Assembly (NCBI RefSeq): GCF_000156335.1
Contig: NZ_DS999213.1
Span: 2,964,929 to 3,028,928, forward strand
Direction of reading: 5' to 3'
Source of the DNA: Roseobacter sp. GAI101
GTDB lineage: Bacteria; Pseudomonadota; Alphaproteobacteria; Rhodobacterales; Rhodobacteraceae
DNA length: 64,000 nucleotides
The notes beneath the pieces were generated by a model that worked only from the letters and a program-made list of their open reading frames with translations, was not told the DNA's origin and did not search any database. Below, one piece after another: positions 26,563 through 41,859 of this stretch (position 1 is the stretch's first letter; the number at the start of each line of letters is the position of its first letter). Position numbers and translations under genes: made by a program.

Positions 26563-26582
26563 ATTTGGTGGAGCCTAGCGGG
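26563..26582. repeat. Left attachment-site repeat of the tRNA-Ala island
   Basis: ATTTGGTGGAGCCTAGCGGG is identical to 41781-41800, the 3' end of tRNA-Ala. Only this fragment of the tRNA is present here, as expected for an attachment site after site-specific integration. Confidence 0.9.
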
Positions 26583-26962
26583 TGATCCGCCAAAAATCCC
26601 AAAACTTATATTTTCCAGTGTGTTAAGCCAGCATGGTCACATTAAAGTTAACCAGTTTTGTATACCACTTCAAGGACGAATTCAAAAAGTACATCCGAGG
26701 AGCTTAAAGCAAGTATTTGTCGGATGGATTGTCCTCCTCAGTCCCTCTGAGCAGGCCTGAGTGCGCCAGTCAAACTGTTGCGATAATTGTGATGCGCGAT
26801 GCTTGCGGCCTCTCCCGTTAGTCAGTGAAAACTTGCTAGCAGGAGAGCGATGCAAAGTTTGACAAAAAATGTGGGCTTTGCTCCGTCAGCAGGTTTATGC
26901 AAATATCATTTTATTCGAGATAGAGTAATGCCTGTCATGTCGATCTTTGTGGGGGAAAAAGT
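26583..26962. other. Non-coding left end of the island
   Basis: About 380 bp of AT-rich sequence. An open frame of 76 codons at 26530-26760 crosses the att repeat and has no recognisable product. AACTTATATT at 26603-26612 recurs at 41768-41777 beside the other att site and may be an integrase arm site. Confidence 0.5.
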
Positions 26963-27946
26963 TTGAAAATATTGATGCCGCTAGCGTTTGCGGTCGTGGT
27001 CTCTTTCCCTGTTGGAGCTCAGGATCTGGGGAGAAGCCTGCTTTTGGGTCTGGGTAGCAGCGCAATGGAGAAGGGTGGGGAGCTAATCGAGGGTGCTCCT
27101 GAGAAATTCGATGATTTCATGAAGTCGACTGTAGAAGGTAGAGAGTTCTCTTCGAACAGTGCGTGCCTTGGTTTCCTACAAGTATCGATTAACGCTGGAA
27201 CGGTGATGGCAAACATACTTTCCTTCTCTTCCGTCAAAATTTTTGAGGACAGCCGAGGGCCAGTCGCTCAGTTCAGAATGCTGATAAACGGAGAAAAGCT
27301 TCACGTTGAAGCATTTTGTAGCGATAGCGCAATGAAAGCTGCCATTCTGCCTTGGGGCAGCGGGTCTGAATCTCCCCGGAAGGTTTCGAAATCGTCTCTC
27401 GATGCCGTAGCTGGCTTGCTTCTGCTATTAGAAGCCCAAGGAGCTTTTGATAGAGAAGCTTCGTCCTCTGAGCCTATCCAATCTGCTGAAACGCCAAAGC
27501 CAAAGCCCATCAGTCCTGGGCTCTCAGAACCTGCAAAAGGGCGAAACTTAGAAACAAATGGCGTACCTGATGAGTTGGATCACCGGTTGGCAGCACCGAC
27601 TGCGCCATATCTGCCTAGCGAGGCTTCGTTGTCTCCTGAAGAAAAGCAAGCGTTCCTATTAGCGGTGTCTGCTTGCTGGAACGTAGGATCCCTTTCGTCC
27701 GAGGCACTCCGCACCACGGTGACGGTCGAGATGGCTATGAAACCGGACGGTACGCCTATCGCTGGTTCCATACAACTTGCTAGCAGTTTTGGCGGCTCAG
27801 AAGCTGCCGTAACCCAAGCTTTCGAAGCTGCCCGTCGCAGTATTATAAGATGTGGTGCTAGGGGCTTCCAACTACCGGCTGAGAAGTTTGACGCCTGGAA
27901 GGAAATGACTTTAATGTTCAATGCAGAGAGGATGCGGATTGAGTAA
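26963..27946 (+). CDS. Secreted protein with a TolA domain-III-like C-terminus
   Basis: A 327-residue exported protein. It has a signal peptide (residues 1-19, MKILMPLAFAVVVSFPVGA), an unrecognised domain with two Cys (about 45-165), a Pro-rich linker (PKPKPISPG) and a C-terminal module (about 223-320: SACWNVGSLSSEALRTTV, then GGSEAAVTQAFEAARRSIIRCG) that closely resembles the C-terminal domain of rhodobacterial TolA. Unlike TolA it lacks the membrane anchor and long helical domain II. It starts at a TTG with GGGGGAAAAAG upstream. It may interact with Tol-Pal partners or block agents that use TolA; this is inference. Confidence 0.8.
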   Translation: MKILMPLAFAVVVSFPVGAQDLGRSLLLGLGSSAMEKGGELIEGAPEKFDDFMKSTVEGREFSSNSACLGFLQVSINAGTVMANILSFSSVKIFEDSRGPVAQFRMLINGEKLHVEAFCSDSAMKAAILPWGSGSESPRKVSKSSLDAVAGLLLLLEAQGAFDREASSSEPIQSAETPKPKPISPGLSEPAKGRNLETNGVPDELDHRLAAPTAPYLPSEASLSPEEKQAFLLAVSACWNVGSLSSEALRTTVTVEMAMKPDGTPIAGSIQLASSFGGSEAAVTQAFEAARRSIIRCGARGFQLPAEKFDAWKEMTLMFNAERMRIE

Positions 27947-28262
27947 GAGAGTCCGTTTCATGTATATAATACATATTCTTGTCGGTTTCGCACTCCTCAC
28001 CTTGAGGCCAAATTTTGCTTATCCGGATGAGGTTCCAGAAAGTGCCGTGGGTGAGGTCAAATTGGCCCAAGCCTACTCCTGCGGGAAAACTTGCGGGCAG
28101 GTAAGCAGCTGCAAGGAAGCCGTTTATCAATGGTGTATATGTGGGTACGCTCGCGCTGATGGTGATAACGATGGTGTGCCATGCGAAAAGCAGTGTGGGC
28201 AGAGCTCAAGTAAAAACCTTGAACGGGTGAACGCTTTCCGAAAGGAGCTTGGTTGTCGTTAG
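27939..28262 (+). CDS. Small secreted protein with an Excalibur calcium-binding motif
   Basis: A 107-residue protein with an N-terminal hydrophobic export signal (MYIIHILVGFALLTL) and a Cys-rich C-terminal half containing CKEAVYQWCICGYARADGD and DNDGVPCEKQC, the Asp-rich loop of the Excalibur domain (DxDxDGxxCE). The TTG at 27939 follows GAGAGGA and overlaps the upstream gene by 8 bp; an ATG at 27921 is also in frame. It is co-transcribed with the TolA-domain gene. The function is unknown; Excalibur domains bind calcium and are found in surface proteins and nucleases. Confidence 0.75.
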   Translation: MSKRVRFMYIIHILVGFALLTLRPNFAYPDEVPESAVGEVKLAQAYSCGKTCGQVSSCKEAVYQWCICGYARADGDNDGVPCEKQCGQSSSKNLERVNAFRKELGCR

Positions 28263-28324
28263 CCCCAAAAACACATTTCCAATGTGGCAGTAAGTCCGGT
28301 CTGCATCCCGATGTTCTTATCGCT

Positions 28325-28666
28325 TCATCTCAAGCTGGATATACATTCGCCGTAAAAGTTCAGTTGGTTGCTGGCACCCTGCTGCCAGACATCAACGTTC
28401 GCTGGTTCGCGCAACACGTACTGATACATAGTGCCTGTTCGATCATCAGTAGCGGATATGAACATGGACCCAATCGTTAGGGGCAACGGGACTCGGTCGC
28501 CAATCTGAACAGTGCTAATTTCTTCGGAAGAGTTTCCTCGAAATATAAACTGCATCAGTGGAAGGTTTTGAAACTTACAGGAAACTACCACGGGGTCTTG
28601 AGCCGCCCAGCTCGGTGACGCCAGTGTTATGAACACCGCGATCTTGGATAGCCATGTGACTTTCAA
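28325..28666 (-). CDS. Small secreted protein of unknown function
   Basis: Counting from a TTG at 28666, the 113-residue product starts with a textbook signal peptide (MKVTWLSKIAVFITLASPSWA). The mature part has two Cys (VVSCKFQ, YGEC) that may form a disulfide, and a beta-rich pattern. The frame is open to 28771, but the extra residues have no export signal. I do not recognise the family. It is convergent with the Excalibur gene. Confidence 0.6.
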   Translation of the reverse strand: MKVTWLSKIAVFITLASPSWAAQDPVVVSCKFQNLPLMQFIFRGNSSEEISTVQIGDRVPLPLTIGSMFISATDDRTGTMYQYVLREPANVDVWQQGASNQLNFYGECISSLR

Positions 28667-28973
28667 TTCGTATCCAGCCTTTCCAGCATCTACATTTATT
28701 CCACCTAACGTATCAATTACTACCAGCTCATCGCAATGTTGAACAGTTTGCCATCGTTTTTTTCCCACCAATTTCCGTGCGTATTGCGCTTCCGTTTCCG
28801 AAGCAGAACCATGTCATGGTCAGGATTCATGAGGCGAGGGGTTGTCCACGCCGTCGTTGTTGGAAACGGTCCTAACCGAACATTGATCCAGCAGCATCAC
28901 GCTGCATTGCAGCTTCGCCGAAGCAGTCATGCAAAATCGATAGAGCCGCGTCGAAGATCTGTTGTAGCTTAAG
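28667..28973. other. Island spacer without a recognised gene
   Basis: About 300 bp between the small secreted-protein gene and the end of the PLD gene. Short frames occur on both strands, but none shows a domain or a ribosome site. Confidence 0.5.
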
Positions 28974-30320
28974 TCATCTAACGTGGACTGTGGCGTCATA
29001 GCCCAAAGACATAAGAGATTTCGATGTTCGTCCGTTCCGGGGTGGGAAACGATCCGGTAGTGCCCAACCGACGAGTTCGCCCAAAGCGCTGATTCCTAGG
29101 CCTTCGATTTTCCATTTCGGGTCATGAACAGCGGTCCAGAGGCGCTCCGGCAATTGCGCCTCTGAACCGCCATACAGGATGAAGTTCAGGAGCTGCTTAA
29201 CGTCGTTGCCGCCTGCGGACTTGTCGCCCCAAATCCGTTTCGAGAGCGCGTCGACCTTTTCTGGTATCGTGTACTTTGTCCCGTCTTCTCGAAGACCGAC
29301 AGCTTTGTTGGCCACTCGTCGGGCGTAATCCTTGATGGAATGTATGCCCATGCAGACCTCACGGAAATCGCTATAGTCCATTTCGTCGATGGCCTCGGCA
29401 GTGAGCGCCTCCCGAAGCATAGGGGCGGTAGAATTCAACATTACGTCTTCTTCCCAAGGTGCTTTTGAGAGGCTACGCCACCAGCTGATGGCTTCGGCGA
29501 CCGCAGTATCAGGGTTCTTCCTGTTCCGTTCGAAATGCTCTGTATAGAGTGCTCTGCGTCCATCAAAAGTGCGTTGGTAATAATGTGCATGTAGGAATTG
29601 GTCGCCTTGAGCACCTGCTGGCGCATCCGCGTCGACCCATGAAGGTCTGTTCTCAGGCTTGCTCACAAGATTTCCGATGTCACGAAGCTGTTGAAGCGTT
29701 GAATGCCACTCCTCCAGAAATGCGGCGCGTCGGCGGTCCGTGGCCTTTTTCTTCCCGGTTTGAACGAGCCCCGACCATTTGTTGAAACTGGGGCTATTCC
29801 AGAACTCCTCAGAAGGCGGCTTCGAGCTGGCTATCTGCTTTGCACGCTTCAGCATGACGGCGAGCAACTCCTCCGTCAGCGGCGTCGAGTTCCGATTGAG
29901 CACGTTGAAGAGTTCAAGTATATCGTCCGCCATCTCGTCGGTGATTTCTGCTTCCGGAAAGAAGCACCCTGCTTCGACGTTCTTGTACCAGGCACTCGCG
30001 GTGAGGTTCGCAGAGCCGATATACAGGCCGTATTCGCGCCACCAGATTACCTTTGCATGGTGATGCTGAACGAGACGGCATTGGAACCTTGCAGATTTCC
30101 GATCCAGGAACGTCGATAGGATGGAAGGTTTGACTGGAACGCCTTCGTCGAGGCGACCGTAAAACTTAAGCGGGATACCGTTGTTCCAACACCAGTCGAA
30201 CAGAAGGTCCATTTCCGTAACGTATGCGACCGCTGCCAAAACCTCTTGCGTCTCAGTCGCCGCATTCAGCGTGATGTTGGTGAGATAGTTTCCGTTAATG
30301 CCGCCCATCATCAGTTGCAT
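28974..30320 (-). CDS. Phospholipase-D-fold protein, third gene of the candidate defence operon
   Basis: A 448-residue protein whose N-terminal third is a PLD-type nuclease or phosphodiesterase domain. The half-site H88-x-K90 (HHHAKVIWW) is followed by G102-S103-A-N105 (LYIGSANLT). Only one HKD motif is visible, so the active enzyme would need to dimerise, as in Nuc and BfiI. The rest (150-448) is unrecognised, with several Trp-rich helices. The ATG overlaps the stop of the upstream gene by 10 bp and has GAGG 5 nt upstream, so it is coupled to it. PLD proteins occur in defence systems such as DISARM (DrmC), but the other DISARM genes are absent. Confidence 0.8.
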   Translation of the reverse strand: MQLMMGGINGNYLTNITLNAATETQEVLAAVAYVTEMDLLFDWCWNNGIPLKFYGRLDEGVPVKPSILSTFLDRKSARFQCRLVQHHHAKVIWWREYGLYIGSANLTASAWYKNVEAGCFFPEAEITDEMADDILELFNVLNRNSTPLTEELLAVMLKRAKQIASSKPPSEEFWNSPSFNKWSGLVQTGKKKATDRRRAAFLEEWHSTLQQLRDIGNLVSKPENRPSWVDADAPAGAQGDQFLHAHYYQRTFDGRRALYTEHFERNRKNPDTAVAEAISWWRSLSKAPWEEDVMLNSTAPMLREALTAEAIDEMDYSDFREVCMGIHSIKDYARRVANKAVGLREDGTKYTIPEKVDALSKRIWGDKSAGGNDVKQLLNFILYGGSEAQLPERLWTAVHDPKWKIEGLGISALGELVGWALPDRFPPRNGRTSKSLMSLGYDATVHVR

Positions 30321-30658
30321 GTTGACCTCATATCAGTGGTTATTTGTTCTGACTGACCTGAGCCGACCGTCCAAGTGTCGTGTTGGATGCTGCGGCACGC
30401 CCCGTCAAACCGGACCTTGGTCATTTGCGTAGGATTTTCAAAATGCGAATGAGGGCAGCGAGGACGCGGCTGCTGTGGGACAGCGGAGGATGAGTATGCA
30501 AAATGTTTGGATGAGTTGACAGCGGCCTCGAAATTGGCCCTTGTGCGCTCTTGCAAGTGCACGAAGTCGAGGTGCATCAGTCTTTCGCAAAGGCCACAAT
30601 AAAGACGTTGGGGCCGGTCAACGGTTCCGAAGTTGTCCAGAATAGTTTTTTCGGTCAT
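30311..30658 (-). CDS. Cys/His-rich small protein, second gene of the candidate defence operon
   Basis: A 115-residue protein not matched to a family I know. It has a CxxC pair (YCGLCERL, Cys21 and Cys24) and a later C-x-H (RCPH, Cys68 and His70) plus Cys88 and His93, which could form a zinc-binding site. It starts 20 bp after the stop of the giant nuclease gene and overlaps the PLD gene. A GTG at 30670 is an alternative start. Operon placement suggests a partner or adaptor. Confidence 0.65.
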   Translation of the reverse strand: MTEKTILDNFGTVDRPQRLYCGLCERLMHLDFVHLQERTRANFEAAVNSSKHFAYSSSAVPQQPRPRCPHSHFENPTQMTKVRFDGACRSIQHDTWTVGSGQSEQITTDMRSTCN

Positions 30659-30678
30659 AGCTTTACTCACTATGCATT

Positions 30679-33600
30679 TTATGTGTTCAAAGCTAGGGTG
30701 CCTATTTGATCGAAAAGCAACATATTTGCCTTGCTGCGGATACCCTCTTTTGCGTACCCCATGGGGACCTGACCGCTAAAAAGGAGGCAATCCTCCAAAG
30801 TAGGATCGGATATCCCTGTGAATTTTCTTAGTTCATCAAGATTTCCGCGCAGGGCGGATGCTCGGTTGAGATGCTTAAGCAAGAGGTCCGGTTTGCCCTT
30901 TGCATCCAATTCACCTCGAAAACTTGACAACTGTTCGGCGATTTCTCCAGGCGTCTTTCGGTACATAAGATCCTTGCACTCAATAGCAATCACGCGGCGA
31001 CTTTGTTCGTCCCATGCAAGAACATCCACGTCACCTAGTCGCTTGATGTTGCCGAACTTCTCATCCTCAGATCGACCCAAAATCTGTGTAACGCCAACAT
31101 CTGACTTTGCTGTCCAACCCAATTCACGGAGCCTTCCAGCCACTTGATCGTTGAAGCTACTTTTATCCTTCACCGAACCATTCCAACGCAGCATTTCCTT
31201 CGTGCGAATTTGAATTTCGCGGAATTCGGCTTCCCAGTACCGAACGAAAGTATACTCACCACCATCGCCGACCATCCCTGGCCAAAGATAGATTTCAGGA
31301 TCCTCTACGTCGTTAAGTTGGATCAATGGACGCCGAAGGACACTTAGCAAACGACGGAACTTCCAAGGTTGGCGATCAAGATCAGTAAATCCTTCAGGAG
31401 CGATCCTCCAGTCTGATCTTGGGAGCAGAGAGAGTTCATGAAAAATTTGATCCAAATGCTGCTCCAGTTCCGGTTTTAGGTCCAGAACCCTCCGGGTAAG
31501 CTCCGACTTTCGAACCACAAAGCACGCTTTCTCCTCGGCCAGCCCCACCTCTTCACAAGCAGCTACAAAAGCTCCATGTGCTTCAATAGGGAAGCCAAGC
31601 TCGCATTCCCATGCCTTTGAAAACTGTTCTTTTTCGGCCAAAAACCCCTTATCCAGCTCGCCAGTCTTTTCCTTAGGTGCCAAAAAGTGATCCCCATAAC
31701 CTTGAATGCTTCGCTCAACTCTGGATTTCATACCAGCTTGACCGAACGGGACGACAACCTCCTCGAAAAAGTCATGGTTAGCTAGAACATCGCCGAGCGC
31801 CGCCACCACAAGTGTTGGTTCCATCGCGCCGTAGTGGATTGCGTCAGACCATCCCCCAAATTCAATAATCTCAATCATCATCGCCATGGACTGTGCGAGA
31901 TCAAATTCGCCAAACGCATCGCCATCGTCGAGGCTGCAAACGCAGTTAGCAACTTCGACTAGAACACGCGATGACTGAAAAACTGCGTTAAGCTTCGACT
32001 GGTGCTTGAGTATTTCCTCCAATGCGCGTCCTTTCTCCTCGTGCAATGCACTGACAGCAGCGGCGGTTCTTTTCCAAGTCTCTTGGTCGCACATTGCAGC
32101 TTCATGGTTAGTGATAAGCCTTTGCAAAACAGACTTCTTCTCAAATTTTCTTAAGAAATCGATCAGCTTATTCTCGAGAAGTTCAACCAATTGGCGCAGA
32201 TAGGCCGTACACTCTGCTTTTCCTTGTATGGTTGCGCCCAGTTTGCGGTCACGGACCTTCCAACCAAGGAAAAGCTTGAGAGTGCTCGTGTCGGCATCGT
32301 TTATGAATACTGGTTTTCGAGGGAGTTTGTGATGAACAAAATCGCGAAAACTCGCTGCAGGGAAGGCGTGCGTTTGACGCACACGGTTGTTCGGAACAAT
32401 TAAGTTTAGCAGATCCTCAAATTGCTCTGGGGCCAACGGCTCAGCTGCGAGTTGAGAAACTCCGAGGCAAGCTGCCCTCACCCACGCTCTTTCGGCAACA
32501 TTATCTTCATTGAAGAAGGCATCTTCAAATCTGCGATTGGCTTTCACGGTTACCACCGCTTTCTCGGTTTGAACACTTACTGAAAGAGTTTCCCTCAGCT
32601 CATTTTCTGAGAACGGCTTAGGCTGCTCTGCCAGGCCAGCCATTGCACCATCAAAGGTTGCATTGATTTGCAATCGATTTGGCGGTTTGTGCTGTCGTTC
32701 AAGTGCACCAAATGCTTGGGCAATTCGAGGCAACCATGTAGACAGCATCCTCCAACGTTCAAAGATCGCATCTCTCGGACTACCCTCAACACCACTTACC
32801 TGGGTCCACCATTCGATGCCGCGATCCTCGAACAGTAACGCCGGAAGGCTCTCGTTGCTTAGCATGTCTGCATATAGAGAAATGGATCGATCTTCTTCGC
32901 TCAACGAGCTGGACGTGCGTCTGACCAAAGTCCAACTGCCATCAAGCTTGCAGGCAGAATGAACATCGGCTTCTTGTTTCGATTGATGTCGCAATGTGCG
33001 CAGCGCGTTCTGATCGACCATGATCAAACCGGCACCTCCGTCCCCGAAGGTATCTGGAACCTGATTGTGTGGTACCAAGTGGCCGCCAAGTTGCTCTCGC
33101 CAAGCAATCAGATTGAGCAGACCATTGATATTGAAGAGTTCAATTCCAGCTTCCGAAACCTGCCGTTCAGCATCCTTCAGCCGCCATAGTGAAATCGGTG
33201 AAAAGCTGTGCTTGTTAGAAAGAACTTCAAAGTCGTGCACAGAGAGAAAGTCTACGTCCCAGTCTTCAACTTCGAACACGCTGGCAGCAAGATTGATGCC
33301 TCGCCCGACGCCACAGTTTACTATTATGCTTATGCCAGATTTAAAGTCATCGCTTTCTTCAGCTTTCGCTTTAGCCAGTTTAATGTGATCGAGGATCGCG
33401 GCGGATGTATTGGGCTGGTCCTTGTGCCACCCGCCAAACCCTGTTTCTTCAAAGCCCCGCAGATTGTCCATGAAAAACAGAATGTGAAGCGCTCTCCCGT
33501 CGTCCACCCAGCGGAACACACTTGCCATTAGAGTGTCACCGGCGGGCGTGAATTCTAGCTGAATTCGACCAAATTCTCCGAGAAAAGGTATCAAGTTCAG

Positions 33601-34476
33601 TCGCTTTGAGTACTCATAGGCTAAAGCCTTTAAGAAGGTGTCCAGCCCGTAGGCTTTGACAATCATCTCGAAAACAAAGCGACGAATGCTGCCGCTGACT
33701 GCGGTCGGAAGCAGCAGGAAAGTATTGCCGTCCTTATGGCCTACGGGGCAACGTTCGAGGTCGTTGTGAAGAAGGTTCTGTTTGAGGAGTTTTGCTCTTG
33801 CTGATGGACCAAATCCAAACTCGCCAAGGTCGTCGAGCTTTATACCCAGATCATCAAGATCTGCCGAGCTAAACGTAAGACATTTTCTCAGCTCCGGTAT
33901 TCGTTCAGCATCTTGTGGTGTGAGCTTTGCCTGTGGTCTCTCGTTCCCCAGCTGGTTTCTGGACAAACCGGCGCGTTTGCAGGCTTCATTTGACAAGGTC
34001 AACAGTGCGTAGACTGGATCCCTAATCACATCGTAGCTTTCGTTTTTGGGAAGACTGTCGACCAATTGCATGAATACCTGCAGGAAGTATCCAGTTCCTT
34101 CACTTAGCCCCTCAAGTACGAGGAAATTGCCACGCATAGTGCTGATGTTACTTACGAACACATCTTCAGCTGGATCTTCTTGTCTAGCGACGATGCCATT
34201 TTCCATGTCCCCATAAAGTCTGCGGAAATCCTTCTGTTTGAGCCTGTTTTTGTCGCGACCAAGCGCCAAAGCTAAATTGACCAAGGTCTCGATCCGATAA
34301 GTGGAACTTTGGAGGTTTTCATTCAGCAAAAGAGCGGCGAAGGAAAGTGCAGTAGCGAGCGGGTCCGAATCTTCCAAAACAGCAAAGGTACCTTTGTATT
34401 GCTTTCTTAAGTCTTCAAACGCTCCAGTGTTTTGGTTCTCTTCAAGGTTTTTGGGCATTGGCGATATAGGGAACAT
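30679..34476 (-). CDS. Giant protein with C-terminal PD-(D/E)XK nuclease motif
   Basis: A 1265-residue protein with no recognised P-loop, helicase or methylase motif. The last 170 residues fit a restriction-endonuclease fold: GDVDVLA (about 1148-1154), then VIAIECKD with Glu1166 and Lys1168, the D...ExK catalytic pattern of Mrr-like or NERD-like nucleases. The remaining 1090 residues are unrecognised and mostly helical in character. The frame stays open to 34803, but its first 100 codons run into the neighbouring insertion sequence, so I take the ATG at 34476; it lacks a strong ribosome site and other starts are possible. It heads a tight three-gene operon with the Cys-rich and PLD genes. I suggest, without proof, a nucleic-acid-targeting defence protein. 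Confidence 0.8.
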   Translation of the reverse strand: MFPISPMPKNLEENQNTGAFEDLRKQYKGTFAVLEDSDPLATALSFAALLLNENLQSSTYRIETLVNLALALGRDKNRLKQKDFRRLYGDMENGIVARQEDPAEDVFVSNISTMRGNFLVLEGLSEGTGYFLQVFMQLVDSLPKNESYDVIRDPVYALLTLSNEACKRAGLSRNQLGNERPQAKLTPQDAERIPELRKCLTFSSADLDDLGIKLDDLGEFGFGPSARAKLLKQNLLHNDLERCPVGHKDGNTFLLLPTAVSGSIRRFVFEMIVKAYGLDTFLKALAYEYSKRLNLIPFLGEFGRIQLEFTPAGDTLMASVFRWVDDGRALHILFFMDNLRGFEETGFGGWHKDQPNTSAAILDHIKLAKAKAEESDDFKSGISIIVNCGVGRGINLAASVFEVEDWDVDFLSVHDFEVLSNKHSFSPISLWRLKDAERQVSEAGIELFNINGLLNLIAWREQLGGHLVPHNQVPDTFGDGGAGLIMVDQNALRTLRHQSKQEADVHSACKLDGSWTLVRRTSSSLSEEDRSISLYADMLSNESLPALLFEDRGIEWWTQVSGVEGSPRDAIFERWRMLSTWLPRIAQAFGALERQHKPPNRLQINATFDGAMAGLAEQPKPFSENELRETLSVSVQTEKAVVTVKANRRFEDAFFNEDNVAERAWVRAACLGVSQLAAEPLAPEQFEDLLNLIVPNNRVRQTHAFPAASFRDFVHHKLPRKPVFINDADTSTLKLFLGWKVRDRKLGATIQGKAECTAYLRQLVELLENKLIDFLRKFEKKSVLQRLITNHEAAMCDQETWKRTAAAVSALHEEKGRALEEILKHQSKLNAVFQSSRVLVEVANCVCSLDDGDAFGEFDLAQSMAMMIEIIEFGGWSDAIHYGAMEPTLVVAALGDVLANHDFFEEVVVPFGQAGMKSRVERSIQGYGDHFLAPKEKTGELDKGFLAEKEQFSKAWECELGFPIEAHGAFVAACEEVGLAEEKACFVVRKSELTRRVLDLKPELEQHLDQIFHELSLLPRSDWRIAPEGFTDLDRQPWKFRRLLSVLRRPLIQLNDVEDPEIYLWPGMVGDGGEYTFVRYWEAEFREIQIRTKEMLRWNGSVKDKSSFNDQVAGRLRELGWTAKSDVGVTQILGRSEDEKFGNIKRLGDVDVLAWDEQSRRVIAIECKDLMYRKTPGEIAEQLSSFRGELDAKGKPDLLLKHLNRASALRGNLDELRKFTGISDPTLEDCLLFSGQVPMGYAKEGIRSKANMLLFDQIGTLALNT

Positions 34477-34625
34477 GAATTCTGCCACTAGGTTGGAGGA
34501 TACGGGCACTACCCTTACGCGAGTGCTTGAAAAAAAATAAGCTCTTTGTAGGTATATTTTTTCGCCCGCATTCTTCGCGCTGCTCTTTAGATCTTGCACT
34601 TGCAGCGAATGGCCGCAATCCGCCG

Positions 34626-36158
34626 ATTCTGTGGAAAAACACCGTGTTGCCGGTGCAGAAAGTGGTGCTCCAAACTGGGAGCAAGCACCTTTCTTATCAG
34701 GCTTTGCGCGTTTGCTGCGGTGCAGGAAAGATCTTGGCCAGTTTGCGGAGGTTTTGGGCGGTTGCGGCGAGTAGGAATTCGTCATTTGCACCGCATGGTC
34801 CACGTAATCGGAGCCTTCCGAGGCCGAGAATGCGTTTGAGGTGTGCGAAGAGCATCTCGACCTTCTTTCGCAACCTCATTGAGATCGCATATTGCTTGGT
34901 CTTGGCAATGTCGCGGGCAACCTGGCGGGCATCTTCATGTTCTTCGCGAGTGATCTTGCGGGCATCAGCATTCGGGCAGCATTTCATCTTTGATTGGCAG
35001 GCCTGACAGGTATGCTTCAGAGCCTGATACTTGGCGACGCCTTTGCCGGTGGGCCCACGGTTGGGGTCAGAATAGTTTCGGCGGAACTGCTTCAGGGGTT
35101 CACCCTCTGGGCAGATGTATTGGTTGTTCTCGGCGTCCCATTCAAAATCTGCGCGAGACCAGGTGCCGTCGGTGCGACCAGCTTTATCCAGGACCGGAAT
35201 ATGGGGATTGATTTTGCGATCTACAAGCCAGCCGAGCATGGGCCCTGATCCATAAGCGCTGTCCGCGATGAGACGTTCGGGTGCCAGATCATGCCGGTCT
35301 TTGATCCTATCCAACATGGTGCGCACAGATCGAACTTCCGCCTGCCGGATCGATCTGGTCGCTTCAACGTCCACGATGACACTGTGATCGGTATCGATCA
35401 GATAATTGGTGGAATAGGCAAAGAACGCAGGGCCTTTTCGGGCTGCAGTCCACTGGCTGCTTGGGTCGGAGTGGGACGTGAACTTTGGCTCAACTTCAGA
35501 TGCAGCACCGAATGCCGCATCGTCCAGGACGTCCAGATACTCTTTGACCGCGCGGGGCGCATCGCTCGGGTCAATTGCCCTGTGATCCCAGTCCTCCTTT
35601 GGTGTGGAGTTCTGTTTGTTGGCGTCGGCCTCAATTAGACTGGCGTCCGCTGCGAGGCGCTGGCCACTCACCAAACCGTCTGCAATGCAGCGCGCAACGG
35701 TCTTCTCAAACAGATGCCGCAGCAGAGCGCTCTCACGAAAACGCCCATGTCTGTTCTTTGAAAAAGTCGAATGGCTTGGTATCGGATCTGACAGATCAAG
35801 GCGACAGAACCAGCGATACGCCAAGTTCAAATGAATCTCCTCGCACAGCCGCCGCTCGGACCGAATGCCAAAGCAATAACCAACCAGTAGCATGCGGATT
35901 AACAGCTCAGGGTCAATCGATGGACGGCCAGTGTGACTGTAAAACTCTGCGAGATATTGCCTAATGTCACTCAAATCGACAAACCGATCAATCGACCGCA
36001 ATAGGTGATCTTGCGGGACATGATCCTCAAGTGAAAACTCATAAAACAGCGCCGCCTGTGCTTCCTGCTTCGGTCCCATCATTGACCAGTCCCCCGCTTT
36101 TATGGGGAAATTGAATCACCCGAAGACCCTCAAATCAAGAAGAGTTTTTCAACAGAAT
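34626..36158. mobile_element. IS1182-type insertion sequence
   Basis: A 1.53 kb element with imperfect terminal inverted repeats (34626-34642, ATTCTGTGGAAAAACAC; 36142-36158, its reverse complement with two mismatches) enclosing one full transposase. No clear target duplication is seen. It lies 150 bp before the giant nuclease gene and 9 bp after the stop of the tyrosine recombinase. Confidence 0.85.
34697..36082 (-). CDS. IS1182-family transposase
   Basis: A 461-residue DDE transposase, apparently intact. It has the N-terminal DUF772-like region (EFSLEDHVPQDHLLRSIDRFVDL, given in part; GRPSIDPELLIRMLLVGYCFGIRSERRL), catalytic Asp in LAADASLIEAD, the YGSGPML segment after LIADSA, and a zinc-like Cys cluster (CQACQSKMKCCPNADAR) before the C-terminal FAHLKRILGLGRLRLRG. 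The length is normal for the family. Confidence 0.95.
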   Translation of the reverse strand: MMGPKQEAQAALFYEFSLEDHVPQDHLLRSIDRFVDLSDIRQYLAEFYSHTGRPSIDPELLIRMLLVGYCFGIRSERRLCEEIHLNLAYRWFCRLDLSDPIPSHSTFSKNRHGRFRESALLRHLFEKTVARCIADGLVSGQRLAADASLIEADANKQNSTPKEDWDHRAIDPSDAPRAVKEYLDVLDDAAFGAASEVEPKFTSHSDPSSQWTAARKGPAFFAYSTNYLIDTDHSVIVDVEATRSIRQAEVRSVRTMLDRIKDRHDLAPERLIADSAYGSGPMLGWLVDRKINPHIPVLDKAGRTDGTWSRADFEWDAENNQYICPEGEPLKQFRRNYSDPNRGPTGKGVAKYQALKHTCQACQSKMKCCPNADARKITREEHEDARQVARDIAKTKQYAISMRLRKKVEMLFAHLKRILGLGRLRLRGPCGANDEFLLAATAQNLRKLAKIFPAPQQTRKA

Positions 36159-36167
36159 TAGCCCAAC

Positions 36168-37136
36168 TCACAACAAAGCCCCAGCTGCATTCCCATCAAA
36201 CAATCCAGCATCCCGAACATATCGGGCCAGCATCACGTCGGACGCATGACCTGTCTGTGCGCGGACCTTGTATGTGGGAACCCCAGCTTTGATGGCGCTT
36301 GTGGCAAGACCCGCGCGGAGACTGTGGCCGCTGTAACCCTCAGATTCGATCCCCGCCGTAGCCAGCCGATCCCGAAGAATTGTCGAAACGGCATCAGGTC
36401 TCAGCATGGGACCTCGCACATTGCCGTGACGGTCTACGGGACGGAACACCCTGCCATCTGGCTCTGGGAGGGCTTGCCGCCAGCCAGAGAGAGCCGCCAC
36501 AGGGCAGTGACGTGTCCTCCCTAGGGGGATGCCGATCTTGCGGCCTTGGCCCGTCTGATCAGTCTTAGATTTGCGCAGGTGCAGGATCAGGCCTTCGCGC
36601 ACCTCTTCAATGTCTGAGAGGTCCAGCCCGGTCAGTTCTGAGGACCGAAAGCCCCCAGCCCAGCCGACCAACAGCAATGCGCGATCTCTGAGAGAGCGAG
36701 GGTCATCATCTAAGGCGTCCAGAACCAAGAATAGGTCTTCACGCAGCAATGGCCGTGCTTGAGCTTGCGCTGTGCCTTTGACCCGCTTGATCCCTCGCAG
36801 CGTCGCGCGCACCAACTCCTTGCGGCAGGGGTTCGGCCAGCCGTTTGCCTCGTGAGCCTTGCTTAGGGTAGCAACACGGCGGGAAAGAGTGGCAGGGGCA
36901 AGTATTTCAGCGTGTTCGGCAAGGTATCGTGCAATTGTTTCGGGTGAAGCCGGGAGCGTACCGCCCCAAACTGTGAAGTGGGCCAGATCAGCCCGATAGG
37001 CCTGACGTGTGTTCTCCGAAAGGCTTTCGCGGATGAAGTGCTCGACTGCTTCATCACCCGTCAAAGTCGGGCCATCTGCCGCCTTTGTAGGGCGGGATAA
37101 GAAAGGATTATGCCGGGTTAGGGTTAGATCGTTCAT
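36168..37136 (-). CDS. Tyrosine recombinase (second recombinase of the island)
   Basis: A 322-residue phage-integrase-family enzyme, complete. Catalytic residues are visible: Arg164 (GGFRSSEL), a Lys near 189-191, His271-x-x-Arg274 (HSLRAG), His297 (TGHAS) and Tyr306 (ARYVRD). The N-terminal SAM-like domain covers residues about 25-120. Its ATG overlaps the stop of the upstream gene by 4 bp. It resembles plasmid or transposon recombinases rather than the tRNA-targeting integrase at 39946, so it may be an older passenger. Confidence 0.92.
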   Translation of the reverse strand: MNDLTLTRHNPFLSRPTKAADGPTLTGDEAVEHFIRESLSENTRQAYRADLAHFTVWGGTLPASPETIARYLAEHAEILAPATLSRRVATLSKAHEANGWPNPCRKELVRATLRGIKRVKGTAQAQARPLLREDLFLVLDALDDDPRSLRDRALLLVGWAGGFRSSELTGLDLSDIEEVREGLILHLRKSKTDQTGQGRKIGIPLGRTRHCPVAALSGWRQALPEPDGRVFRPVDRHGNVRGPMLRPDAVSTILRDRLATAGIESEGYSGHSLRAGLATSAIKAGVPTYKVRAQTGHASDVMLARYVRDAGLFDGNAAGALL

Positions 37137-38233
37137 ATCAGGCCCTCCGCAGCAATATCAGCCCGGATCGCATTGAGGTCGGGCAAGACGTTCCGTAATA
37201 CCGCTAAGCCATGCTCTACGGCCTCCGGTGAGACGCCCGCACATTCTTGCTCCCAGCGTTCGCGCAGCTCGGTTCCGAATGCCCCATCGGCACGGCGAGA
37301 AAGGCATTGGCCTTCGATGCGAAACAGCAACTCCCCCAAAATCTGAACCCGCCCGTGTTTCGGCAGGAAATCAGCAGCCCAAGCCGCCAAGCCTGCATTC
37401 CGCAAAAGCAATCTGTGCAGTGCCGCACGACCGGGGCGCGTGTACATGTCAAAACCCCACGAAGGATTGCAATTGATTGCAATCTCAACCGGGGTTGGAT
37501 CGTCTTTGACCCGGTCTGAAACGACATCGTTTTGGAGGGACAGCAGGGACATATAGGGGGCGAGCATGGTCACGGTCTTGGTAAAATTCTCACGAGCAAT
37601 CAGCAGCATTGTTGGCGCAATGCCTAACTCTGCCAATGTGTCCCACGCCATGTCTGGATTACCCTTTCGGAAAAGCAAGTGATCGCTGGCGCAGCGCTTG
37701 GTCCCGAACAGATACCACAGTGCCAAGGCCCTCTGATCCAGTGACGGGCAACCCAAAATAATCTGGCGAAGACGCGCGTCTGAGTACTGGGCAAAGTTGA
37801 TACGATCCGGGGCAAGCCGGGGGAGACGTTCTACCGTCATCAGCAGATCATCCGCAGAACGGGATTTTCGTGCCGCGCACATGCGCCGGATGAGATAGTC
37901 GGTCACAATGACCTCCCCACCAAGATCGCGGCGGACTTTTGCGCTTTTCAAGCAGGCGGCAGTGATAGCCACAGTTTCGATGTCCGCGAGGCCAATGTCT
38001 TCTGAGGCAATGGCATTGAGACGGCGCAGAAGGTGTTCCCTTTTGACCTCCAGCAAAAACCGTCCGGCTTGACCCGCAACGTGCGGAAGGTTCCTGCGGA
38101 TCGCTTTCTGCAACAATGAGCTTGCGACCCACTGTGTGCCCGGGAATGGGGTGATCCTTCCCCCCAAATTGAGACGCGCGATCTCCTGCGCAGCTATCGT
38201 TTGAAATCTGGTGAATGCAGTTTTGTCTGTCAT
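37133..38233 (-). CDS. RarA C-terminal-like protein coupled to the tyrosine recombinase
   Basis: A 366-residue protein without a Walker motif. Residues about 37-90 (SSLLQKAIRRNLPHVAG; LLRRLNAIASEDIGLADIE) strongly recall the C-terminal tetramerisation region of RarA/MgsA/WRNIP1 (QKSIRG...RRL..ASEDIGLADP). The rest is helical and unrecognised. It overlaps the recombinase by 4 bp, so the two are produced together. A role in recombination or host-replication interaction is inferred. Confidence 0.7.
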   Translation of the reverse strand: MTDKTAFTRFQTIAAQEIARLNLGGRITPFPGTQWVASSLLQKAIRRNLPHVAGQAGRFLLEVKREHLLRRLNAIASEDIGLADIETVAITAACLKSAKVRRDLGGEVIVTDYLIRRMCAARKSRSADDLLMTVERLPRLAPDRINFAQYSDARLRQIILGCPSLDQRALALWYLFGTKRCASDHLLFRKGNPDMAWDTLAELGIAPTMLLIARENFTKTVTMLAPYMSLLSLQNDVVSDRVKDDPTPVEIAINCNPSWGFDMYTRPGRAALHRLLLRNAGLAAWAADFLPKHGRVQILGELLFRIEGQCLSRRADGAFGTELRERWEQECAGVSPEAVEHGLAVLRNVLPDLNAIRADIAAEGLI

Positions 38234-38474
38234 CTGACCCTCCTTGGTCTGGAGGGGGTCGGAAACGTCTAACCTCTTTTAGAATACCCTATGGTACCGA
38301 CAGGGGAAGGGTAATCGAACCTTTTGGAGTACATTTTGAGTGAAGTTAACTGCAAACCGCTACAAATCGACAACGGGCCAGCCTTTGGTGTCAAAATGTC
38401 TCCAGCAAAATGTCTAGTTTGTTTCCACTTTTGCTCATCCCGCAACGCCAAGCGCAGCAGGGTCAAAGTGAGGT

Positions 38475-38632
38475 TTTGAAATTGTCTCAAAAAGTGTCTT
38501 CAGTCCGTGAGGCATGCTCGATATCGCTTGAGTTCTGTTCTTTGTTGAGCGCTTACCCTGCACCGGGTTATTCAAAATTTTAAGCATCTGCGCTTGGCTA
38601 TTTTGTTCTTTACTTGTTTGAAATTGACTCAA
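38475..38632. repeat. Two direct repeats upstream of the recombinase operon
   Basis: TTTGAAATTGTCTCAA (38475-38490) and TTTGAAATTGACTCAA (38617-38632) match at 15 of 16 bases and lie 142 bp apart. They may bind an island regulator or recombinase. Confidence 0.6.
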
Positions 38633-38737
38633 CAGTTCGAACCGCAGTTACTTTTGATTGTGACCTGAGCTCCTACAATTGAATTCTCAGTGCGCACACA
38701 GATTGCTGCGATTTTAGCGGTGCGGCAAAATAGCGCC

Positions 38738-38833
38738 CTCTGAGCGGGTCAGAGTGCCATTCTCTAGGGTAGGGTGCTTGGTCGTTCTAGTTGCTGCCCT
38801 CAGGGTCCGCTCCGGGGCCCTTGAGGGCTTTTT
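38738..38833 (+). ncRNA. Candidate small RNA with Rho-independent terminator
   Basis: On the plus strand, a 6-bp hairpin (CTCTGA 38738-38743 with TCAGAG 38749-38754) is followed by a long GC-rich hairpin at 38796-38828 and TTTTT at 38829-38833. There is no plus-strand protein gene before it in this region. The 5' end is unknown and may lie upstream. Confidence 0.4.
38796..38833 (+). terminator. Strong Rho-independent terminator
   Basis: GCCCTCAGGG pairs with CCCTTGAGGGC, with one bulged T and a short inner stem, followed by five T residues. The T-run is on the plus strand only. Confidence 0.8.
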
Positions 38834-39023
38834 GGGACTGGACTTGATGGCTGAGTTTTAGGTCGGCGGTCAGAAAGAAGTCAATTTTTCGCTATCTAAG
38901 CGCCCGTATCGACCAGGAATGTAATTTCACCTAGAACCGATGCGCTGTCCGAAAATTCATAGCGGTAAAATTAGAAGGCGCTGTGTTCGTTCTTTCCGTG
39001 AGCTCTTTCGCCCGTGTTGTAGC

Positions 39024-39099
39024 TCAACATGAGCGCAGCGAGTGTTGAACTATCATCATGTCGCTTTCTTTGTGTCTACTGACTATAATGATGATAGTT
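39024..39099. repeat. Inverted repeats at the end of the integrase operon
   Basis: AACTATCATCAT (39048-39059) and ATGATGATAGTT (39088-39099) form a perfect 12-bp inverted repeat with a 28-nt spacer; its right arm lies in the last codons of the gene ending at 39083. TCAACA/TGTTGA (39024-39029, 39043-39048) is next to it. They may end the minus-strand transcript. Confidence 0.55.
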
Positions 39100-39949
39100 T
39101 ATTTATATTGTTTAATTCTTTAAGTATGCGGTGACAAAGATCTGGGCATTTTGTCTCCGAAAGCTGACCTTGAACTGCCATGCTGTAGTAATCCAGCGCA
39201 ACATATGTGAACCTTCGGAATAGGCTGATACTTGGAAACCGCAAAAACCTAGTATAAAAATTTTCTTTGTTTTGGTCATAGGCATCGCCATCGTGTTGAC
39301 CAATGAACTGCGCAACTTTCACGCAAGCCATGAAGGGTGACCAGTTAGAGACAATGGTTCTGAAAATATCGAAAGCAAGGGCCGGAGGGCACTCTTTTGC
39401 GATGCCAACAAGGAGGCCAAACTGTTTCTTGTCAACGTTGCGTCCGGTGGCGTTTCTCCAAAATTTGGCCATCATTCGTGCTTGGTCTTCGTGTGTGAGA
39501 TCCGAAGCGAGCCCAATGCGGATCAAAGTGGTTTTTTTCCCTTTGCGCATTTTTATCACATGCCTAAAGGGCGAGCCCCTGTAAAGTCTTCGGGCATGAT
39601 CGGGTGAGATTGCAAGTGAAGCAGCAATTTTTTCAGCGGGGAGGTCCGCCCACGTTCGCCCTTCAGCTTCTATGGGAAACTCGTCAATTTCATTGATTAC
39701 AAGCTGATACAGCGCTTGCTTCGTGGGGTTGAGTTTATCCTTTGTTTTCGTCGGAGATTCTAGGTCTTTGAGGTATTTTTCAAATCCTCCAGAAAAGAAT
39801 TTTCCTGTGGGATTTGGGGGCGCGATCCAAGGCTTGGCTGGGTCGTGGGCTGTTATCTCGCCATCAATGACCATGTCTGCGCGCAGAATTGCTTTTCCTA
39901 CTGCCGTCGAGCCTAATAGCCAGCCGATATTCTTGTTTTGCACGCTCAT
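39083..39949 (-). CDS. Uncharacterised island protein coupled to the integrase
   Basis: A 288-residue protein I do not recognise. Its middle (WADLPAEKIAASLAISPDHARRLYRG) looks like a helix-turn-helix, followed by a basic turn (KMRKGKKTTLIRIG). The C-terminal half is helical and aromatic-rich, with two Cys. The ATG overlaps the integrase stop by 4 bp. Candidates are a regulator or an accessory DNA-binding protein for excision; the usual excisionase size is far smaller. Confidence 0.75.
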   Translation of the reverse strand: MSVQNKNIGWLLGSTAVGKAILRADMVIDGEITAHDPAKPWIAPPNPTGKFFSGGFEKYLKDLESPTKTKDKLNPTKQALYQLVINEIDEFPIEAEGRTWADLPAEKIAASLAISPDHARRLYRGSPFRHVIKMRKGKKTTLIRIGLASDLTHEDQARMMAKFWRNATGRNVDKKQFGLLVGIAKECPPALAFDIFRTIVSNWSPFMACVKVAQFIGQHDGDAYDQNKENFYTRFLRFPSISLFRRFTYVALDYYSMAVQGQLSETKCPDLCHRILKELNNINKLSSL

Positions 39950-41691
39950 TTTTCCGACCCTGATGGAACTGGCCCGTCTATATGCAAGAAGCTGAGGTCA
40001 AGACCAGAATAGGCAATTTTTTCGACAGAATTGATGTGAAAATCTGGATTCCCTGGGGTTCCGTAATCATCGCTCACCGATGTCGATCCAGGTGACCACC
40101 CGGCTATCGCCCGAAGAGTTTCTGGTGGAGCCTTGATGCGCCTTAGAGCGTCCCTGACATTGTGGCGAAGGCTGTAAAGTGTTTGGCGATTATCGAGAAT
40201 TATTTCTTCTGGGATGAATTTTTCACGCAGCCGCCTCGTTGCGTAGTGGGCAGTGTTGCCGTTCTGATCGGGCGTGAGATTGGGAAAAAGGCGTCCGGTT
40301 GGATTAACTGACTTTATTTTATCAACAAACTGCAGGAAGCCAATTTTTACTAGCTCAGGGTGAAGCGGGATCATCCTCCGGCTGCTCAACGTTTTTATGG
40401 ATTTTTCGTGATCATCTTCGCTTTCCAGAACATCGATATACCAAGTACCATTTTCGGTTCTCTTCACGTCCCCTACTAACAACTGGCTGATTTCATTTGG
40501 ACGTGCTCCCGTGAAAAGCATTACGAGCGGTATCCAAAATCGCCAGTCTCTATCGAGCTTTTTGTATGGATTTTGAGAATCTGGACGGCAGGACTGATAA
40601 AATTTGCCTGTGAAGAACTTGATTATCTGATCCTCCCTCCACGGAAGCCTTTTCTCAGAAGCCGCGAGCGTTTGTCTTTTGATGGGCTTCACTCCTGCAG
40701 CAGGGTTGTGACGTAAAAAACCTTTGCGGACACCAACGTCCAATACGTTTACCAATGTGTTCAAATATTGACTTTGCGTAGTGGGATCGAGAGTTGGATG
40801 GCCATCTTTTTGGGCTGCCTCAACGGCTGCTGGAATTGTAAGCTTTTTGTACAGTTTGTTCCTGTTTTTAGGAAGCCTACCCAGTATCCGTCTTATGCCT
40901 TGAACGACGTCGTCGTTGAGCTTGGATAGGGGGAGATTTTCGCCGATCGCCTCGCGTAATAAGCTTAAGTTTGATTGAATTTTATCGACCCATTTTCTGC
41001 TTACGGAATTCTGGTCGTACTCCTCCAGCTTCTCTTCCCAGAAGATGTCTGTCAGTTTACCGAAAGTGATTTCAGGATGTCGGTCTGGGTCAAAGAGCAC
41101 ATCGTGGAAAGTCTTGGCAAAATTATGTTCAAGACGATCCAGTGCTCGGGATTGTATCTCAATTAGCCCGCGGCGAATGAGCTCGGCAAACTCTGCAATC
41201 AAGGCCTTGTCCTCGAGATGAGCTCCTGCACGCTCGAGAAGCTCATTTGAAACAGAATATAACCATTGTTGACCGTTGGGGTCTTCGTGGGTTTTGAGAA
41301 CTTGCAGCGCTATTTCGTTCTCTTTGAGCATTTCCCGGCGTTGCTCTTCGTCTTCAGGCGGCTTCTGAACAAGGTGCCTTGCAGCTAACTCATCGGATTC
41401 AGCCACATACTGGCGCAAGTAATTAATCAAATCTCTTAGGGACGCCTGTGGTAGCGCTGAACTATCTCCATCCGTTGATATTTTGTGTTCAGATGCGGCA
41501 AACCGAGCATCGACTTGGATGGAGTAAATGTTCCGAAGTCGCCGTGCTTCCTTTACATCACTGACCCCTAGCGATTTTTTGATGAACTGCGTGCCAATAT
41601 ATTTCCTAGCATTTTGGGGAACCCTTCGGGAATAATGCCATATATTTCCTCGACGAACTAAATATTGGTTTTTTGGGGACAAGATATTCAT
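39946..41691 (-). CDS. int: Site-specific tyrosine integrase of the tRNA-Ala island
   Basis: A 581-residue integrase beside its tRNA target. The N-terminal segment (RRGNIWHYSRRVPQNARKYIG) is the DUF6538-type arm-binding start. Catalytic residues are Arg397 (TGARPNEI), Lys433, Arg509 in YSLRH (Tyr506 replaces the usual first His), Trp532 (AGWS) and Tyr543 (DDYGTP). It presumably made the 20-bp att duplication. The start lies 93 bp from the tRNA end, where excision would control its promoter. Confidence 0.94.
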   Translation of the reverse strand: MNILSPKNQYLVRRGNIWHYSRRVPQNARKYIGTQFIKKSLGVSDVKEARRLRNIYSIQVDARFAASEHKISTDGDSSALPQASLRDLINYLRQYVAESDELAARHLVQKPPEDEEQRREMLKENEIALQVLKTHEDPNGQQWLYSVSNELLERAGAHLEDKALIAEFAELIRRGLIEIQSRALDRLEHNFAKTFHDVLFDPDRHPEITFGKLTDIFWEEKLEEYDQNSVSRKWVDKIQSNLSLLREAIGENLPLSKLNDDVVQGIRRILGRLPKNRNKLYKKLTIPAAVEAAQKDGHPTLDPTTQSQYLNTLVNVLDVGVRKGFLRHNPAAGVKPIKRQTLAASEKRLPWREDQIIKFFTGKFYQSCRPDSQNPYKKLDRDWRFWIPLVMLFTGARPNEISQLLVGDVKRTENGTWYIDVLESEDDHEKSIKTLSSRRMIPLHPELVKIGFLQFVDKIKSVNPTGRLFPNLTPDQNGNTAHYATRRLREKFIPEEIILDNRQTLYSLRHNVRDALRRIKAPPETLRAIAGWSPGSTSVSDDYGTPGNPDFHINSVEKIAYSGLDLSFLHIDGPVPSGSEK

Positions 41692-41780
41692 CCTTCATGT
41701 TTACCACAATTGTGACCACCATGCGGGATGTAACTATCTGAAATGACATAAGTTTAAGGTTTCCCGCAACTTATATTCGA

Positions 41781-41800
41781 ATTTGGTGGAGCCTAGCGGG
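41781..41800. repeat. Right attachment-site repeat within tRNA-Ala
   Basis: The same 20 bases as 26563-26582; 41784-41800 is the 3' end of the functional tRNA gene. Confidence 0.9.
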
Positions 41801-41859
41801 ATCGAACCGCTGACCTCCTGCATGCCATGCAGGCGCTCTCCCAGCTGAGCTAAGGCCCC
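41784..41859 (-). tRNA. tRNA-Ala (anticodon GGC)
   Basis: A 76-nt gene with encoded CCA. It starts GGGGCCTTAGCTCAGCTGGG, has the anticodon arm CCTGC ATGGCAT GCAGG (anticodon GGC) and the T arm GCGGTTCGATCCCGC. The acceptor stem pairs GGGGCCT with AGGCTCC, with one G-T pair. It reads CCA at 41784-41786. It is the integration target of the island. Confidence 0.97.

Follow-up and report, generated by a model that had tools for sequence, protein, structure and literature searches.

We analyzed a 64,000-nucleotide stretch of the Roseobacter sp. GAI101 genome (contig NZ_DS999213.1, positions 2,964,929 to 3,028,928), hereafter the window, and in particular three consecutive minus-strand open reading frames (ORFs) encoding a giant protein, a product of 119 amino acids (aa) and a PLD-fold protein (Table 1). 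A preliminary description had taken these ORFs for a new three-gene defence operon, with a putative zinc protein joining two nucleases. The tight coupling it reported was confirmed: the 119-aa ORF and the PLD ORF overlap by 10 bp, and the gap between the giant ORF and the 119-aa ORF agrees with the earlier figure, being 20 bp when counted from an internal ATG and 8 bp from a GTG. We likewise found a defence-family protein with a PLD-fold neighbour on an integrase-bearing island. Our data indicate that the locus very probably holds a divergent Upx beside a separately evolved, mobile PLD gene (phrog_28026) on an island at a tRNA-Ala gene, and not a three-gene system.

Table 1. Features of the locus and of the surrounding island (window coordinates)
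Feature	Position	Strand	Details
upx-like gene	30679..34476	-	1265 aa from the ATG of the preliminary description; C-terminal PD-(D/E)XK nuclease site
119-aa ORF, probably not a gene	30311..30670	-	Upx 3' flank running into the PLD leader
PLD-fold protein, phrog_28026, 448 aa	28974..30320	-	one HxK...GSxN half-site and a helical C-terminal part
Junction zone between Upx-side and PLD-side units	30320..30366	-	homology breakpoints in G1276 and in PLD loci
Upstream extension of the giant open frame	34477..34803	-	mostly IS1182 sequence; outside Upx
IS1182-family insertion sequence	34563..36163	-	transposase 34697-36082; NF033551, 417 bits; directly upstream of upx
Tyrosine recombinase upstream of the insertion sequence	36168..37136	-	Phage_integrase, 1.4e-14
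366-aa ORF	37133-38233		overlaps the tyrosine recombinase gene by 4 bp; MgsA_C, 25.1 bits, under the 27-bit threshold
Probable integrase beside the tRNA	39946..41691	-	DUF6538, 1.2e-11; Phage_integrase, 6.9e-04, 19.9 bits (cut-off 27.1)
tRNA-Ala (ggc), integration site	41784..41859	-	ARAGORN
Distal att repeat, 20 bp	26563..26582	+	identical to 41781-41800 at the tRNA-Ala end

The giant protein and the Upx family

The giant protein matched the PADLOC profile for Upx (PDLC02221) with an E-value of 4.6e-230 over profile positions 24-1256 of 1271, and the NCBIfam model Upx_antiphage (NF042954) at 2.1e-249 and 830 bits over positions 10-1224 of 1240. Comparison with the sequences of solved structures gave one match, PDB 9WUF (5.1e-155), with query residues 40-1250 aligned on chain residues 50-1259; the Foldseek listing gives this entry the title 'Cryo-EM structure of Upx' and the release date 2026-02-11. 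The Upx of another genome (G662), which exceeds the NCBIfam cut-off, matches 9WUF end to end. Our model of residues 47-1245 of the giant is weak (6 sequences, pLDDT 67), and its sole Foldseek hit below 0.001 was again 9WUF (3.5e-62, TM 0.48). A search of the literature library available to us, on the cryo-EM structure of Upx and on 9WUF, found no paper on the structure. Upx is referenced to Gao et al. 2020 in an excerpt of PMC10855318, and excerpts of PMC12629846 and PMC12824646 note it on Pseudomonas and Vibrio islands. The earlier statement that the locus fits no nameable defence system therefore falls, since the giant belongs to a family that is catalogued in both PADLOC and NCBIfam and has a solved structure.

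The C-terminal GDVDVLA...IECKD site described earlier is well conserved, as D1151, E1166 and K1168 are invariant in all 14 sequences of the Upx alignment, and the same holds for E100, D101 and E104 near the N-terminus. The giant had also been said to lack a visible ATPase, and our Pfam scan up to E 0.1 agrees with this, having matched no domain of any kind.

With a protein query, Upx matches at E 0.001 were found in 3 of 98 genomes. The family profile, at the same threshold, found them in 5 of 398, 5 of 345 and 8 of 341 genomes, in sets that overlap; the genome under study is counted in the 98-, 398- and 341-genome figures. Six of 72,556 plasmid records carried a Upx match, none covering more than 80% of the query. 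Five Upx loci were found on viral contigs by alignment search, whereas a scan of these contigs with a single Upx sequence was unproductive. For the comparisons of gene neighbourhood we used 13 other Upx loci (L012, L017 and L095-L105), and excluded L106 and L107, which gave weak profile hits and in which blastp found no Upx gene. In one of these loci, on a Sinorhizobium meliloti plasmid, an IS66 element interrupts the Upx relative (L012:3872-10732).

The PLD protein and its junction with Upx

The PLD protein matched phrog_28026, annotated in PHROGs as of unknown function, over its full length (824 bits), and Pfam PLDc_2 at 5.5e-07. The single PLD half-site noted earlier stands: all 41 aligned sequences have H88, K90, G102, S103 and N105 of the HxK...GSxN motif, together with N114 and E116, and the position of the usual HKD aspartate is occupied by R, K or H. 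This alignment (A4) draws on 33 of 40 genome loci and 7 of 20 viral loci. The genome loci omitted are a near copy of the window (L026), two in which the gene is split in two ORFs (L050 and L059), one with no PLD ORF called (L045) and three fragments (L053, L055 and L057); many of the 13 omitted viral loci are near-duplicates or short. In the structural model (pLDDT 88.7, pTM 0.59) an N-terminal PLD domain is followed by about 250 residues that form a helical C-terminal part, and its best Foldseek matches were SauUSI (1.9e-06) and Nuc (6.8e-05); SauUSI was also found with the sequence profile (0.0033). Nuc is a dimer with one half-site per chain, and the single half-site in the PLD protein suggests, by analogy, that it too forms a dimer.

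In a protein search the PLD protein was present in 2 of 337 genomes of the class, the genome under study included, and although 1207 plasmid records matched it, only six did so over at least 80% of the query. On a Klebsiella plasmid (L011:5959-6222), a short hypothetical gene flanked by tnsE and hsp20/clpK corresponds to a C-terminal piece of the PLD protein (residues 373-447, 48%); among the matches listed, the same piece was matched in the other Klebsiella and related records.

We compared the neighbourhoods of 66 PLD loci, comprising 40 genome, 20 viral and 5 plasmid loci and the genome G292, some of the viral and genome loci being apparently one record. Within the DNA examined, Upx and the small ORF lie beside the PLD gene in only one of the 66, that of Sulfitobacter sp. 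HGT1, where the island is 99.1% identical over 8 kb. Conversely, no PLD relative was found at E 1 or better in any of the 13 other Upx loci, nor by blastp at E 0.001 at the five viral Upx loci, within flanks of varying length: for L104 only 1.2 kb of downstream DNA was covered, L110 is incomplete, and in L111 the sequence stops at the Upx gene. The preliminary description had itself named the recurrence of the three genes in other genomes as decisive, and the trio recurs only on this near-identical island. A new three-gene defence operon was therefore rejected, the giant being a Upx and no independent recurrence of the trio having been found.

Elsewhere the PLD gene is often found with phage genes. 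Tail genes or phrog_6367 lie near it in 8 of 40 genome loci and 16 of 20 viral loci, but in none of the 5 plasmid loci and not in G292. At one of the eight genome loci (L033) the match to these genes is only a distant one, at 25%. Ten genome loci have a PLD identity of at least 83%; seven of these carry tail genes or phrog_6367 (L020-L025 and L027), and the three that do not are HGT1, L028 and the fragment L055. In the phage group the PLD gene follows a divergent minor-tail gene, and its stop codon abuts a convergent phrog_6367 gene.

The boundary between the Upx and PLD units falls within the small ORF. In G1276 (L098), whose Upx is 91% identical, DNA homology passes the Upx stop codon and ends at window position 30363. 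In eight close PLD relatives (L020-L025, L027 and L028), homology starts at 30315-30331 in seven and at 30366 in L024, and ends in all eight at 28972-28981, at the PLD stop codon. We compared 15 PLD leaders with the 60 nt that precede the window PLD gene. The match was reached by none of 500 shuffles for L024, by one for L083 and by three for L028, and by 10 to 426 of 500 for the other 12. These comparisons leave the exact breakpoint uncertain by some tens of bases, yet they place the 119-aa ORF across the join of the two units.

No relatives of the 119-aa ORF were found in plasmids, phages or viral contigs, and when 295 genomes from the family were searched at the DNA level, only two matches of 33-39 bases (E 5e-4 to 8e-4) appeared besides the genome under study, which we took as chance. 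Its sole Pfam match was Zn_ribbon_TOP3B, over 12 residues (E 0.044, 13.9 bits against a cut-off of 27). In G1276 the counterpart lacks about 100 bp, carries a 1-base insertion and has early stops; its frame is open for only 44 residues, and R stands in place of the second-half cysteines. Compared with G1276, the two alignable pieces of the ORF (26 and 39 codons) gave pN/pS values of 0.75 and 2.07, whereas Upx gave 0.19 in the same pair; the other two frames of the 39-codon piece gave 0.30 and 0.47. This suggests weak constraint and is not proof. As far as these few data go, the 119-aa ORF is probably not a gene and would instead be the 3' flank of Upx continued into the leader of the PLD gene. 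The zinc protein proposed as the middle gene was accordingly rejected: despite the weak zinc-ribbon match, no relatives were found in these searches, and the ORF has a broken frame in G1276, little sign of coding constraint and no conserved Cys/His ligands.

The island and the insertion sequence upstream of upx

The locus lies on an island of about 15 kb at the tRNA-Ala gene, with a 20-bp repeat of the tRNA 3' end at the far side and a GC content of 0.51, compared with 0.61 and 0.60 on the flanks. The island (window 26563-41800) is 99% identical to that of HGT1, the identity beginning at window position 26566, whereas the flanking chromosome is 80-91% identical; this difference suggests a recent transfer of the island. 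Upstream of the recombinase, HGT1 has a 357-aa ORF as the positional counterpart of the 366-aa ORF of the window.

The IS1182-family insertion sequence (IS) has copies elsewhere in the same genome that are 99.9% and 99.6% identical. The giant open frame extends past position 34476 to 34803, and because the IS lies directly upstream, residues 1-82 of this long frame match three other places in the genome (89-96%), while the Upx profile match begins only at residue 123-127. Truncation of the giant by the IS was ruled out, since the IS end lies upstream of the point where the Upx match begins, and in HGT1, which lacks the IS here, the gene start is the same. HGT1 and G1276 share 74 bp upstream of upx that the window lacks beside the IS (window 34573-34650), so that some of the promoter region proper to upx may be gone. 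In place of window 34573-36163, HGT1 carries a 168-bp element with inverted ends GATTGTGTTGAAAAACTCT that resemble the IS ends (L015:2341-2508); this element is possibly a miniature relative of the IS.

Interpretation and comparison with known systems

The Upx and PLD genes have separate histories, as they occur apart elsewhere and a homology breakpoint lies between them. The three ORFs appear to have become neighbours on a mobile island, and a partnership between Upx and the PLD protein is poorly supported. Upx would most likely act as a single protein, in which the N-terminal part of about 1100 residues would sense infection or hold the nuclease inactive, and the released C-terminal PD-(D/E)XK nuclease would cut DNA. 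The PLD protein would be a dimeric DNA nuclease of the Nuc or SauUSI type acting alone, and in prophages it may exclude other phages.

Several observations weigh against this reading. The score of the giant does not reach the NCBIfam equivalog cut-off of 1900 bits, a narrow one that only 1 of 5, 1 of 5 and 1 of 8 Upx matches passed in the 398-, 345- and 341-genome sets, and its identity to most Upx relatives is 22-30%. Judged by sequence, the giant is a member of the wider Upx family outside the curated equivalog group, and given its low score and identity it need not have the activity of the Upx that has been tested. Between the window and HGT1 the PLD gene differs by 10 synonymous and 3 non-synonymous changes, a pattern that points to purifying selection having kept it functional next to Upx in the two strains. 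Many PLD copies lie outside the phage-tail group, only 8 of the 40 genome loci having tail neighbours, and some lie near other defence genes: in a Sphingomonas locus (L036, 6918-11362) there is a 4-bp overlap between the PLD family gene and an HsdR-like gene; in G292 (L016:10314-19929) it follows a UvrD/PD-(D/E)XK gene by 134 bp, counted from the start used, near a BrxL gene; in two further loci it is near Dsr1-like genes (L042:12685-16305 and L044:7136-9784); and on a Bosea plasmid an AbiEii-type gene comes after it. As to the junction, the leader match beats all 500 shuffles in only one of the 15 loci. The small ORF shows 2 synonymous and 3 non-synonymous changes between the window and HGT1 (ratio 0.43), too few to decide, and the G1276 sequence could be a real gene that has decayed.

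These observations bear on four alternatives. That all three genes form one system, with the 119-aa zinc protein as the link between the nucleases, is extremely improbable: the frame is intact in both the window strain and HGT1 and has its sub-threshold zinc-ribbon match, but the ORF had no relative found in plasmids, viral contigs and phages, spans the junction, and is broken in G1276 with loss of its second-half cysteines. It is also quite unlikely that Upx and the PLD protein form a two-enzyme defence unit, the latter having been recruited downstream as a second effector, much as DrmC goes with DISARM. The shared strand, the tight spacing, the repetition of the arrangement in two strains, the purifying selection on the PLD gene and the 4-bp overlap with an HsdR-like gene in L036 would all fit such a unit. 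The two strains share one island, however, and the pairing is therefore a single event; a PLD relative occurs in 0 of 13 other Upx loci and Upx in 0 of the 65 remaining PLD loci. DrmC, the PLD protein of DISARM, is dispensable for DISARM according to an excerpt of PMC9142583; in this it parallels a PLD gene that moves along with a defence gene but is not required.

In a broader version, which we hold to be quite unlikely, the phrog_28026 PLD gene would be a mobile, interchangeable DNA-cutting module, appended 3' of unrelated defence genes and serving as a second nuclease to the upstream sensor. Upx in the window, the HsdR-like gene in L036 and the UvrD/PD-(D/E)XK gene near BrxL in G292 would be examples, with prophages and islands as carriers. 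This idea is framed by a report, seen in an excerpt of PMC12799240, of unrelated systems that repeatedly gain shared nuclease genes. The PLD neighbours named here were picked by hand and no enrichment is therefore claimed; others are ordinary, such as genes for an AcrB-type transporter (L041), an M24 peptidase (L034) and DNA polymerase III (L048). The remaining alternative concerns upx itself, which might now be unexpressed, a recent relic whose upstream region was partly removed by the IS1182 insertion. The position of the IS, the absence of the 74 bp shared by HGT1 and G1276, and the 9.5 synonymous and 12.5 non-synonymous changes in Upx between the window and HGT1 (ratio 0.38) are in line with this. 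We regard it as unlikely, since the frame is open across 1265 codons and its catalytic residues are retained; moreover, an IS end can supply a promoter, and one may do so here.

Taking the locus as a divergent Upx next to an independent PLD gene disposes of a misleading candidate for a new three-gene system. It records a divergent Upx in Sulfitobacter, the genus to which the window strain, listed in the same genus as HGT1, would belong. It also draws attention to the phrog_28026 PLD family, which recurs in prophages, on plasmids and beside some defence genes, as a candidate phage-exclusion gene.

Among known systems, DISARM was ruled out, as the preliminary description had also concluded. The window PLD protein has a local PLD match to DrmC (residues 86-138, 4.9e-08 in PADLOC), but it scores 32.9 bits against an NCBIfam cut-off of 133 and, at 448 aa, has a different C-terminal part; the partners DrmA helicase, DrmB and methylase had no match among the island proteins scanned, eight with Pfam and NCBIfam and seven with PADLOC. 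With single-HKD PLD nucleases the protein shares the HxK...GSxN half-site and the PLD fold. It lacks the helicase part of SauUSI, and differs from both SauUSI and Nuc in its extra helical part of about 250 residues and in the R, K or H that replaces the D of HKD. The giant resembles Upx in its near full-length homology, its GDxDxLA...ExK C-terminal site and its form as a single large gene, whereas it is only about 28% identical to canonical members, scores 830 bits against the 1900-bit NCBIfam cut-off, and has alongside it a PLD gene that was not seen beside the 13 other Upx loci. The PLD protein matches phrog_28026 from end to end; the window copy lies beside Upx on an island, whereas the copies in L020-L024 and L027 lie between phage tail genes.

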